64,000 nt of DNA from an uncultured Erysipelotrichaceae bacterium. Its GTDB lineage: Bacteria; Bacillota_I; Bacilli_A; Erysipelotrichales; Erysipelotrichaceae. The stretch spans positions 1 to 64,000 of the forward strand of contig CALVCO010000001.1 of the NCBI GenBank assembly GCA_944326095.1, given 5' to 3'. The notes under the pieces are model-generated. The model saw only the letters and a list, made by a program, of their open reading frames with translations, was not told the origin of the DNA and made no database searches. Numbering within the stretch: the first letter of the stretch is position 1; the number at the start of each line of letters is the position of its first letter. The position numbers and the translations under genes were made by a program. Below, one piece after another: positions 9,421 through 13,663 of this stretch.

Positions 9421-9825
9421 TTAACCTTGATTTTGAATATATTTTTCTATAATTTCTTGAGATACTTGTCCTATACTACATGCAAAATATCCATCAGACC
9501 ATAATATCTTAGATTTCCAATAATACTTAGATAGATATTCACTATGAAAATCCCACATCTTATAAGTACTATATTGTTTTAATTGTTTAACTATTTTTGA
9601 AACTGAGATTTCAGGTCCATAATCTAATAAGATATGAACATGGTCTTTGTCTGTTTCCATCTGAATTATCGAATAACCATATTTTTGTGCGGTATCGTAT
9701 AAAAATTGTTTAATATCATCAGAATATTCAAATGTTTTAAATATTTTCTTACGATATTTTGTTACGAAAATAAGATGAACTTTCATACTAAATTTGGCGT
9801 GACCATTTCGCTTGTAATCATCCAT
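9421..9825 (-). CDS. tnpA: IS200/IS605-family Y1 transposase TnpA
   Basis: The 134 residues form a complete single-strand transposase: the opening KFSMKVHLIFVTKYRKKIF, the HUH metal motif His62-Val-His64 (KDHVHILL) and a C-terminal helix with Tyr129 and Gln133 (EKYIQNQ). This matches the Tyr-xxx-Gln spacing of the nucleophile helix in TnpA of IS608. It would excise and insert the element as single-stranded DNA. The start overlaps the end of iscB by 43 bases and there is no strong ribosome-binding site, so it is likely coupled to iscB translation. Full tnpA-iscB pairs are less common than lone iscB copies. Confidence 0.95.
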   Translation of the reverse strand: MDDYKRNGHAKFSMKVHLIFVTKYRKKIFKTFEYSDDIKQFLYDTAQKYGYSIIQMETDKDHVHILLDYGPEISVSKIVKQLKQYSTYKMWDFHSEYLSKYYWKSKILWSDGYFACSIGQVSQEIIEKYIQNQG

Positions 9826-11057
9826 GACGATCTTGCTGTTAATCTAATAAGATTTTTAAGTTTAGGTGTTTTGAATCCTGTAGGCATATTACTAAAATCT
9901 ATCTTATTTCCTATAATGTCCATCAATAATGCATATCCAGATGACATTCTACCTTTAATGAAATATTCTTTACCAAAATATTTGACCTTATCAAATTTTT
10001 TAAAGCCTAATATTTTTTTAGTTGTAATTGGTTGTCCAGAGCGAACACCTTTTGTTTTTTGAAAATCTCCACACGCAACACATTTCTTTTTAAAAAGATT
10101 AGTTTTAATGTTAAACTTACTTCCTTGAGTTGCAATAACACAAGCATCTAAATAGTGTTCTTTACCTACATTAAGAAGTAAACGATTCGCTTTAGTTATA
10201 TAGCCAAATGTTTCTAAAGCTTCAGGATAAATCTTAAATAATTGTTTACGAATCATATTCATTTGTATAGCATATTTTAGATTTCCTTTTAGTTTACCTT
10301 TTAAATTAAGTTTAATATTTCCTGCATGAAGTTCTTTATGACAAGTATGGCACAAAGTTATGAGATTACTTTGATCATCTGAACCACCTTGACTTCTATA
10401 AATAATATGATGAACTTCAAGCTTACTATCTTTGTGCTTGCCTTTACAATACTGACAAGTATAATCATCTCTATTTAAAATCATCGCTTTAGTATTTTCA
10501 AATCCATAATTTGGACCTTTTTGATAACCCCAATGTCTAATATTTTGGTTTACTAAACTTGGATTTTTCATAAGATGAGTATCAAATTGACTTGTTTCAA
10601 AAACCAATTTTTTAATAGGTAAAATAGATTTAATATATTCTATTTCTTTAACATGACTATGTAATTTACTTTGCATTGTTGGACTAAATCTATTTGCTTT
10701 TTTAGAGCTACCTCTATTAAGCCATCTTGCTTTTCTATATCGTGTTTTTCGATTTCTACGACTACGACGGTATTTTCTTCTTTGATCCATTTTACTGGTA
10801 ATATCATTTCTAACTATAACTTCAGACATATAAACAATATCACCATTTTGATTACTAACAGCAGCACCAATAGTACCACTTCCTGTATCTACACCAAGTG
10901 TTAAATCTTGAACGTAGGTTGTTGTGTCATAATTTAATTTAATCGTAAATGGTTCACGACATTTAACTTTTGCTTTACCTTGTTTTAGTAATAATCTTGC
11001 TATTGGATTACTACAAGGCATTAAAGGTTTACCTTGTTTTGAAATTACATAAACCAT
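9783..11057 (-). CDS. iscB: IscB: OMEGA RNA-guided HNH/RuvC endonuclease
   Basis: The 424 residues show every IscB part in order: the N-terminal PLMP motif (GKPLMP, 9-14), RuvC-I (LGVDTGS, Asp57), the arginine-rich bridge helix (about 92-115, RRKYRRSRRNRKTRYRKARW), RuvC-II (LVFETSQFD, Glu154), a zinc-finger HNH domain (Cys201/204, His216/217, Asn231, Cys236/239, His240), RuvC-III (EHYLDACVIA, His301 and Asp304), and a C-terminal domain (about 310-424) of the kind that reads the TAM. All catalytic residues are present, so it is a predicted active nuclease. AAGGAG precedes the ATG by a normal spacing. IscB is distinct from TnpB, which has no HNH insert or bridge of this type. Confidence 0.96.
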   Translation of the reverse strand: MVYVISKQGKPLMPCSNPIARLLLKQGKAKVKCREPFTIKLNYDTTTYVQDLTLGVDTGSGTIGAAVSNQNGDIVYMSEVIVRNDITSKMDQRRKYRRSRRNRKTRYRKARWLNRGSSKKANRFSPTMQSKLHSHVKEIEYIKSILPIKKLVFETSQFDTHLMKNPSLVNQNIRHWGYQKGPNYGFENTKAMILNRDDYTCQYCKGKHKDSKLEVHHIIYRSQGGSDDQSNLITLCHTCHKELHAGNIKLNLKGKLKGNLKYAIQMNMIRKQLFKIYPEALETFGYITKANRLLLNVGKEHYLDACVIATQGSKFNIKTNLFKKKCVACGDFQKTKGVRSGQPITTKKILGFKKFDKVKYFGKEYFIKGRMSSGYALLMDIIGNKIDFSNMPTGFKTPKLKNLIRLTARSSWMITSEMVTPNLV

Positions 11058-11071
11058 AATAAGGGCTCCTT

Positions 11072-11360
11072 ATAAATTCTCTGCTTAAAAGCAGGTAGTG
11101 CGTACTATACTATACTGTCACCATATAGTTATTCCGACGTCAACTCGACAATGATATAAAGGCTTTTTACATCCATATCACAAGGCTTTGCTTACTCTAA
11201 CCTAACTTAAATATGTACGATAGAGCGATGGTCTGTTGCGTCAACCAAAGGTATCATGACCTAAATATCGTAGTATCCATTTCTGAATACTTAGTCTGGT
11301 GAACTATTTAACAGAAGCCACTGACCTTTACGGTCTGTGGTAGTTCACTCTATTTCGTGA
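11072..11360 (-). ncRNA. Predicted omega-RNA (HEARO-type) of IscB, guide at its 5' end
   Basis: About 290 bases between yolD and iscB lack a plausible gene and contain stems. Clear ones are CCAC-T-GACC (11318-11326) with GGTC-T-GTGG (11332-11340), an outer stem GTGAACTA (11299-11306) with TAGTTCAC (11341-11348), and CTGCT (11081-11085) with AGCAG (11090-11094) just ahead of the iscB ribosome-binding site. In known IscB systems the omega-RNA lies upstream of iscB and its roughly 16-nt guide comes from DNA flanking the left end. Here that would be TCACGAAATAGAGTGA, the end of yolD including its stop codon. Both ends of the RNA are predicted, not known. Confidence 0.7.
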
Positions 11361-11671
11361 GTTAATTCGATATCTATAATATTTTTAATAGGAATTATTT
11401 TATTTACAATTTGGATAGTTTTATGATTAATTAAATCAATCTTAGCTACCATACCACATACTTTAATATATTCTTCATCAGCAAAATATATTACCGTAAT
11501 AATATCATTTGGTTTTATCATATGAATTTTCCATTCTAGTTGGGCATATTCATCTTCTGATAATTGACGACACTTTACGACAACTTTTTCTTGTTGTCTA
11601 AGATATTCTTGGAAACCTTTTAAAGCATCAAAACTTAAAAATAATTTAGCACGATCTACTTTATTGGGCAT
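11345..11671 (-). CDS. YolD-like protein
   Basis: A protein of about 108 residues with the YolD-like pattern (DRAKLFLSFDALKGFQEYL, then ITVIYFADEEYIKVCGMVAKID and IPIKNIIDIE). YolD-like proteins are encoded next to UvrX-type Y-family polymerases; their role is not established. The start at ATG 11671 has GGAGG just upstream; an in-frame TTG at 11683 overlaps that site. It overlaps the polymerase gene by 11 bases. Its stop codon sits in the GTGA at the IS insertion point, so the coding sequence is kept intact while its original downstream region is displaced. Confidence 0.85.
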   Translation of the reverse strand: MPNKVDRAKLFLSFDALKGFQEYLRQQEKVVVKCRQLSEDEYAQLEWKIHMIKPNDIITVIYFADEEYIKVCGMVAKIDLINHKTIQIVNKIIPIKNIIDIELTHEIE

Positions 11672-12920
11672 TATGTCCTCCAATTAATTTATTACGCTTG
11701 ATAGTTGTAGCCTTTGGTAAAAGATTCATGCCTTTAAAGATAGCATTTTTACCATAACGATTTTTAATAGTTGAAATGGTATGTTGTAAATTCTTTTCTT
11801 CAACAATATTTTCATAATTGTTAAAAAGATCATATTGTTCATAGATTTCATTTTGTAAATTGCCAAAAGAAATGCCAATTTGTCTTATTTGATATATTGG
11901 ATTAGTTATTTTTTTAAATAGGTCTATAAATTCATTAGTTAATATACTACAAGAATTGGTAGTACAAGTTATTTTACATGAACCTCTTGATGCTTTATGT
12001 ACATTTTTAGTATAGCCAATATATAAAGATATATGATTAGTAACTAGATGCATATCTGAAAGGCGTAATATGGTTACTTCTACCATTTCTTTTAAAATTA
12101 ATAAGGCATGTTCATAATCATAATCTTCAAATAATATTTGTGAATTGGATATAGAATTAGTTTTAGGTTTATAATTTTTAATATCTTGAATTGTTGTTGG
12201 TTCTTGTCCCCAAGCATGATCTATTAAATATTCAGCATTGATGCCAAATTCTTTATATAAGATATCTTCAGGATAGTGAGCTAAATCATACATGTCTTTA
12301 ATTCCTAATTTGTTTAAATGATTAGATATGCCTTTACCAATGTGCCAAAAATCTGTTAAAGGTTGATGATGCCATAAAGTAGCTTTAAAGATTTCTTCAT
12401 CTAAAAAAGCTAAATTATCTTTGGTATGTTTAGCACTAATATCTAAGGCTATCTTAGTTAAATATAAATTAGTGCCAATACCACAAGCAGCAGTTATGCC
12501 AGTGGTTTGTTTTACATCATTAATTATTTTTTTAGCCAATTCTTTAGGTGATAATTTATATAAATGTAAATAGGGCGTAACATCAAGAAAGCATTCATCA
12601 ATGGAATATACATGAATATCTTGAGAACTTATATATTTTAGATATATGCCATAAATTTGTGCTGAATATTCCATATATTTTTTCATTCTAGGTTTAGCAA
12701 TTATATAATCAATATTCTCGGGTATTTCATATAAACGACAACGATTTTTAATTCCTTGAGCTTTTAATTTAGGAGATATAGCTAAACAAATAGCTCCTTT
12801 ACCTCTAGAAGGATCGGCTACTACTAAATTTACTTTAAAGGGGTCTAAACCTCTTTCTACACATTCACAAGAAGCATAAAAAGTTTTTAAATCGATGCAT
12901 AAATATCTTTTATTTTCCAT
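11661..12920 (-). CDS. Y-family DNA polymerase, UvrX/UmuC-like
   Basis: The 419-residue protein starts CIDLKTFYASCECVERGLDP, the Y-family palm motif with the first metal-binding Asp and the Tyr steric gate region. It has SIDECFLDVTPY, carrying the catalytic Asp-Glu pair, and a helix-hairpin-helix region (HIGKGISNHLNKLGI). The SIDEC form and pairing with YolD point to the UvrX/YqjW branch rather than housekeeping DinB. These are error-prone translesion polymerases induced by DNA damage. AAAGGAGA precedes the ATG. The promoter contains a candidate operator for the divergent LexA-like repressor. Confidence 0.92.
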   Translation of the reverse strand: MENKRYLCIDLKTFYASCECVERGLDPFKVNLVVADPSRGKGAICLAISPKLKAQGIKNRCRLYEIPENIDYIIAKPRMKKYMEYSAQIYGIYLKYISSQDIHVYSIDECFLDVTPYLHLYKLSPKELAKKIINDVKQTTGITAACGIGTNLYLTKIALDISAKHTKDNLAFLDEEIFKATLWHHQPLTDFWHIGKGISNHLNKLGIKDMYDLAHYPEDILYKEFGINAEYLIDHAWGQEPTTIQDIKNYKPKTNSISNSQILFEDYDYEHALLILKEMVEVTILRLSDMHLVTNHISLYIGYTKNVHKASRGSCKITCTTNSCSILTNEFIDLFKKITNPIYQIRQIGISFGNLQNEIYEQYDLFNNYENIVEEKNLQHTISTIKNRYGKNAIFKGMNLLPKATTIKRNKLIGGHNAQ

Positions 12921-12942: not shown

Positions 12943-13052
12943 ATTATAGGCTATAAAGTTTCCTAAAACAACTAAAATAAGAAACTTTTTAAGAATAAAA
13001 TCTTAATAATTTCTTTTTTAAAGTAATTATGATACAATTTAGGAAACTGGAG
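12943..13052. promoter_or_regulatory. Divergent promoters and candidate operators between the polymerase operon and the LexA-like repressor
   Basis: For the polymerase (minus strand): -35 TTGTTT (12966-12971), 17-base spacer, -10 TATAAT (12943-12948). The spacer holds TTTAGGAAACT (12957-12967 read on minus). For the repressor (plus strand): weak -35 TTTCTT (13010-13015), 17 bases, -10 TACAAT (13033-13038). The identical 11-mer TTTAGGAAACT (13038-13048) follows it directly. A third AAGAAACTT lies at 12979-12987. The same box in the sense direction of both genes is a strong operator candidate. The Bacillus SOS box GAAC-N4-GTTC is absent. Confidence 0.65.
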
Positions 13053-13060
13053 ATAGGCTT

Positions 13061-13663
13061 ATGGATTTAAAGGAAATATTACAAAGTTATAAGGATAAAA
13101 CAGGTTATAATAATGATCTTTTAGCTACTAAATTAGGAGTTACAAAATCTGCTGTTTCTAAATGGTTATCTGGACAAGTTAAAAAAGTAAAGCCAGAAAC
13201 GATGGAAAGAATATCTACTCTAGTTGGTTATGATATTGGACCATTTTTAAAAGGACAGGTAGTAAGTTTTAAAAAGCCAATATTGGGATATGTTAAAGCA
13301 GGTTATGATCTTTTTAGAGAGGAACAATATCTAGGATATGAAGAAGTAAATGCTAATGAAAATATTCAAGGTGATTATTTTTTGCAGGTTGTAGGTGATT
13401 CGATGATAGGTGATGGGATCATGGAAGGTTCACTTGCTTATGTAAAACAATGTAATCAAGTTAGTAATAATTCTATTGCCGTAGTAGCTATAGGTGATGA
13501 TGAAGTTACGATAAAGCGAGTTATCAAACGCCCTGAAGTATTTATTTTGGAAGCTTCAAATCCTAATGTAAAAGCTCGCTATTTTACATATGAAGAGGTT
13601 GAGAATTTACCTGTAAGAATCATTGGCAAAGTATTATATGTTAAGACAATACTTGGTCGATGA
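13061..13663 (+). CDS. LexA-like autocleaving repressor (XRE HTH plus S24 peptidase)
   Basis: The 200-residue protein has an XRE-type helix-turn-helix (residues about 17-50, LATKLGVTKSAVSKWLSG) and a C-terminal S24 domain. The self-cleavage machinery is complete: an Ala80-Gly81 scissile bond (VKAGYD), Ser114 (GDSM) and Lys152 (VTIKRV). In LexA/CI-type proteins RecA filaments trigger this cleavage and relieve repression. It probably represses itself and the divergent translesion polymerase operon. GGAG lies 12-9 bases before ATG 13061. It differs from classical LexA in using an XRE rather than a winged HTH, so it may be a host SOS regulator or a domesticated phage repressor. Confidence 0.9.
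   Translation: MDLKEILQSYKDKTGYNNDLLATKLGVTKSAVSKWLSGQVKKVKPETMERISTLVGYDIGPFLKGQVVSFKKPILGYVKAGYDLFREEQYLGYEEVNANENIQGDYFLQVVGDSMIGDGIMEGSLAYVKQCNQVSNNSIAVVAIGDDEVTIKRVIKRPEVFILEASNPNVKARYFTYEEVENLPVRIIGKVLYVKTILGR

Follow-up and report, generated by a model that had tools for sequence, protein, structure and literature searches.

A predicted lineage-specific operator of a LexA-like repressor at a DNA polymerase cassette of an uncultured Erysipelotrichaceae bacterium

Gene arrangement and the repressor protein

The analysed window (the whole stretch of 64,000 nucleotides from an uncultured Erysipelotrichaceae bacterium) contains an operon of umuC and a yolD-like gene and, divergent from it across a 140-bp spacer, a gene for a LexA-like repressor. 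The features of the locus are listed below.

9421–9825, minus strand: Y1 transposase of an IS200/IS605-type element
9783–11057, minus strand: IscB-like RRXRR-HNH protein of the same element
11128–11348, minus strand: HEARO RNA of the same element (Rfam RF02033, 95 bits)
11345–11683, minus strand: yolD-like gene (Pfam YolD), putative UmuD counterpart, overlapping the end of umuC
11661–12920, minus strand: umuC/uvrX-like gene for a Y-family DNA polymerase of 419 aa (Pfam IMS and IMS_C)
12943–12971, minus strand: umuC promoter as read from the sequence, with -35 TTGTTT (12966–12971), a 17-bp spacer and -10 TATAAT (12943–12948)
12957–12986, no strand assigned: predicted operator O1, an interrupted palindrome AGTTTCCT-N14-AAGAAACT of 30 bp straddling the umuC -35
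13030–13038, plus strand: repressor promoter as read from the sequence, with extended -10 TGATACAAT and a weak -35
13038–13048, plus strand: predicted operator O2, TTTAGGAAACT at the presumed start site of the repressor gene
13061–13663, plus strand: XRE-S24 LexA-like repressor of 200 aa (Pfam HTH_3 and Peptidase_S24)

The match of the yolD-like product to Pfam YolD (E-value 6.7e-6) scored 26.5 bits, below the cut-off of 27.5, and the best NCBIfam match of umuC, PRK03103, was also below the cut-off of that model. The yolD gene adjoins umuC in most relatives too, and a pair of Y-family polymerase and YolD has been proposed to be a Gram-positive Pol V (PMC6511836). The IS200/IS605-type element (9421–11348, minus strand) lies immediately downstream of yolD, and its HEARO RNA overlaps the final bases of this gene. 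A consensus promoter scan of the umuC/repressor spacer returned no promoter above the threshold, and the -35 elements are weak; the extended -10 pattern of the repressor, TGNTAYAAT, is retained across the same-genus loci.

The repressor has an Ala-Gly cleavage site (A80-G81) and a S114/K152 dyad, exactly as described earlier for this DNA. G81, S114, and K152 are invariant in all 46 aligned sequences, while position 80 is occupied by Ala in 42 and by Gly in 4. The AlphaFold2 model (39-sequence alignment, pLDDT 85) comprises a four-helix HTH (helices 3–14, 18–25, 29–37, and 45–55) and an S24 domain, with low confidence at residues 81–84, beside the cleavage site; the recognition helix corresponds to residues 29–37 (KSAVSKWLS). 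The best fold matches in PDB were LexA, including RecA-bound LexA entries, followed by the lambda and 186 repressors, and the sequence also matched LexA, including the RecA-bound entries. The curated LexA model TIGR00498 gave 66 bits against a cut-off of 111, with the S24 half only, and by this model the repressor is not a canonical LexA/DinR. The fusion of an XRE/CI-type HTH to a LexA-like S24 domain, the Ala-Gly site, the Ser-Lys dyad, and an operator-like box common to its own and the umuC promoters, as judged by sequence, are properties of HdiR-type regulators, which are further marked by RecA-dependent self-cleavage, clearance by Clp, and induction by DNA damage.

Structure and conservation of the boxes

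Exact copies of an 11-mer, TTTAGGAAACT, occur at 12957–12967 (minus strand) and 13038–13048 (plus strand). The first is located within the 17-bp spacer of the umuC promoter, between -35 and -10, and the final base of the repressor's extended -10 is also the first base of the second. The preliminary description had placed one 11-mer at these two positions in the sense direction of both divergent genes, with a partial third copy in between, and the sequence bears this out. The partial copy (AATAAGAAACT, 12976–12986) matches the box at 8/11 positions, and its arm at 12979–12986 mirrors the first copy (AGTTTC-N18-GAAACT). Because the first copy has the third as its mirror arm, O1, whose left part in minus-strand reading is that first copy, is two-armed, and O2 is a single half-site with no conserved inverted partner. 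The combination AGTTTC-N13..22-GAAACT was found genome-wide at O1 and at two sites within reading frames.

By number, the boxes are ordinary. The 1.61-Mb genome contains only two exact copies of TTTAGGAAACT, both at the umuC/repressor divergent promoters, and the reversed control pattern likewise has two copies, so it is the co-location that counts. Dinucleotide shuffling of the 140-bp spacer produced an exact inverted repeat of at least 11 nucleotides in 19 of 500 trials (p about 0.04), which makes the repeat alone weak evidence, and a search of the 64-kb window with up to two mismatches revealed no excess of boxes. The case is strengthened beyond this marginal result by conservation. Four same-genus loci (the window and three further genomes with spacers 74%–88% identical to it) share O1 in the form AGTTTCYT...AAGAAACW, and the O2 block AATTTAGGAAACTGGAG is identical in all four. 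Of the box columns 25/27 are invariant, compared with 55/93 in the remainder of the spacer (Fisher p 8e-4 when promoter hexamers are left out of the box columns, with columns treated as independent). Since two of the genomes have near-identical spacers, the GAAACT-type box is carried by about three independent lineages.

The divergent arrangement of umuC-yolD and the repressor recurs across genera, with spacers of 107–150 bp, and the box differs among the relatives: AGTTTC/GAAACT in the own lineage and GTTGC/GCAAC, ATACATAA/TTATGTAT, AGATTTGGGAAT, or GTCCGATAAT elsewhere. One genome of the same genus has a different box, of the AGATTTGGGAAT type. The GAAACT box pairs with a KSAVSKW recognition helix, the GCAAC box mostly and the ATACATAA box with an xxTV(S/G)RW helix, the AGATTTGGGAA box mostly with STYYRW, and the GTCCGATAAT box with RSTYYRW. 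Box type thus appears to follow the recognition-helix type of the repressor, a correlation confounded by shared ancestry. In some box types the inverted repeats at umuC are clear; many relatives score no higher than shuffles, and a clear palindrome is lacking in several spacers of the AGATTTGGGAA type. In four other umuC spacers the promoter carries an evident palindrome with a different sequence; examples from relatives are AGTTGCAT-N13-ATGCAACT and TATACATAA-N9-TTATGTATA.

In two genomes (G054 and G013, the latter only 68% complete) umuC and the repressor gene are on separate contigs, and GCAACTTTTnTGCAACT is present upstream of both genes. A search for GCAACTTTTnTGCAACT allowing one mismatch found those two sites only in each genome; the reversed control also gave one to two matches, so the weight of the unlinked boxes lies in their placement rather than their number. 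No other evidence links the box to the repressor, and points to umuC as the repressor's target, as well as this natural separation does, and the unlinked copies argue for the repressor acting in trans on umuC. The palindromic form of O1, the co-variation of box and helix, and the persistence of the box where the genes are unlinked extend the preliminary description.

In nine further loci, repressor relatives are divergent from a different gene, which begins like MKRTIVHADLNHCYAQIE. This gene apparently represents another type of Y-family polymerase, with about 24% identity to umuC in the matched cases; since some relatives adjoin it, repressors of this group may control error-prone polymerases of several kinds.

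LexA, SOS boxes and repair genes in the genome

The genome (1.61 Mb, 99% complete, 86 contigs) was examined through pattern searches and stretches. The winged HTH of LexA (PF01726) had no match in it, and the matches to PF00717 were the repressor, a signal-peptidase-like frame, and a short S24 fragment. The latter, a 62-aa C-terminal piece (positions 1465–1653 of locus L032, contig C12) beside phage-like genes, is probably a prophage remnant. LexA above the curated cut-off was found in 4 of 142 genomes of the family, and this genome is not among the four; a literature search on LexA loss in Erysipelotrichaceae found nothing. The classical SOS box GAAC-N4-GTTC is absent from the umuC/repressor spacer. 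Genome-wide it occurs once, in a pyruvate-phosphate-dikinase-like coding sequence (reversed control, 15), and none was found upstream of repair genes. The earlier proposal that the operator is non-Bacillus and serves an XRE-type LexA-like repressor agrees with the lack of a canonical LexA and of classical SOS boxes.

The same proposal had extended the box to a distinct SOS-like regulon and named a genome-wide motif scan as its check; here the result went against it. Allowing one mismatch, the box had 59 matches, including the two exact ones, versus 94 for the reversed control. All but three were inside frames of about 100 codons or more, and by-eye naming places the remaining three before an alanyl-tRNA-synthetase-like gene, a short nitroreductase-like frame, and a transposase-like gene. 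No box with up to one mismatch preceded any repair gene in this genome-wide search, which covered the uvrA and uvrB promoters. The box was absent from the upstream region of recA, from the start of recN (right after a dxs-like gene), and from that of dinB (directly after recN). Because these searches found it upstream of no repair gene, the regulon as defined by sequence comprises only the repressor and umuC-yolD.

A cassette-confined switch and its alternatives

The boxes are best read as operators of the adjacent XRE-S24 repressor, which would act as an HdiR-like switch confined to its cassette and controlling itself and umuC-yolD; we give this reading a probability of about 80%. The evidence for it lies in the anatomy of the locus, the conservation of the boxes, their genome-wide confinement, the absence of canonical LexA, and the pairing of box and repressor, including the unlinked copies. 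The locus is thus most likely a small switch of two promoters rather than a genome-wide repair regulon; switches of this kind are known from streptococci, and the one here has a lineage-specific operator sequence.

Since LexA is absent here, the repressor could conceivably stand in for it at recA, uvr, and further repair genes. Moreover, HdiR of S. thermophilus reaches cinA-recA, and in Bacteroidetes non-canonical LexA proteins run a full SOS regulon (PMC8565304). Such a genome-wide regulon is nevertheless very unlikely: the exact box is confined to the umuC/repressor locus, its near matches are fewer than those of the control, none of the three non-coding ones lies before a repair gene, the recA and recN-dinB upstream regions are free of it, and where the loci are split, in two relatives, the GCAACT-type box is restricted to umuC and the repressor. 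The opposite extreme, in which the repressor regulates itself alone, for instance as a prophage-type repressor left stranded, with umuC under other control, would fit the facts that XRE-S24 proteins are typical phage repressors and that phage repressors are among its weaker relatives. The matches in plasmids and phages are only distant (<60% identity), and two such regions that were inspected were phage-like, with no umuC. Self-control alone has, if anything, a slightly smaller chance, as the two-armed site is part of the umuC promoter, the repressor stays paired with umuC across genera, and an unlinked umuC keeps the box of the distant repressor. The neighboring genes (serine protease, RlmH-like, HPr-like, sugar-phosphate mutase-like, and the IS element) are not prophage-like either.

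The 11-mer repeat could also have arisen by chance, the spacer being very AT-rich, as the shuffles reaching its length and the lack of a window excess would suggest. This explanation is the most improbable: the boxes are preferentially conserved and lie over both promoters, and relatives have parallel boxes.

If the boxes are operators of the repressor, the switch could work as follows, the steps beyond the anatomy being drawn from LexA and HdiR (PMC8565304). Bound to the palindrome of O1, across the umuC -35, the repressor would block RNA polymerase, and on O2 it would cover its own start site and limit its own synthesis. Because both O1 and O2 would be occupied, umuC-yolD, the operon of the error-prone polymerase, would be silenced and the repressor self-limited. 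Upon DNA damage, RecA on single-stranded DNA would trigger self-cleavage at A80-G81 through S114/K152, both promoters would open, and the polymerase would be made. Operator binding, repression, RecA-driven cleavage, and damage induction are thus proposed by analogy.

HdiR of Streptococcaceae (L. lactis, S. uberis, and S. thermophilus) is a LexA-like S24 repressor of itself and umuC in LexA-less hosts, and its regulon is minimal in S. uberis (PMC8565304). The present cassette resembles it, by description, in function and layout, namely a LexA-less host, an S24 repressor, and predicted control of itself and umuC, but comes from another bacterial family and, unlike S. thermophilus HdiR, gives no sign of recA control in this genome. 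UmuDAb of Acinetobacter, again in a LexA-less host, is an S24 regulator that cleaves itself and controls operons for error-prone polymerases (PMC8565304; PMC11332147); self-cleavage is predicted for the present repressor too. UmuDAb derives from UmuD and is aided by the corepressor DdrR, whereas the present repressor is of the XRE type. The uvrX/yqjW-yolD operons of Bacillus and Staphylococcus likewise combine a Y-family polymerase and YolD (PMC6511836) but are under LexA, while here neither a canonical LexA nor GAAC-N4-GTTC promoter boxes were found. Non-canonical LexA of Bacteroidetes has the same combination of a CI-like HTH and an S24 domain replacing LexA (PMC8565304); it runs a canonical multi-gene SOS regulon, which the present repressor appears not to do.

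Judged by sequence, an HdiR-like polymerase switch with a predicted operator is indicated in a LexA-less lineage outside streptococci. The types of box and helix could be turned into testable specificity rules, such as A31/K34 with GAAACT versus T31/R34 with GCAACT. In a family largely devoid of LexA, the SOS response may have been reduced to private polymerase switches with fast-changing operators that co-evolve with the recognition helix, a view to which we give even odds. If it is true, the family would represent a natural series of operator-helix pairs.
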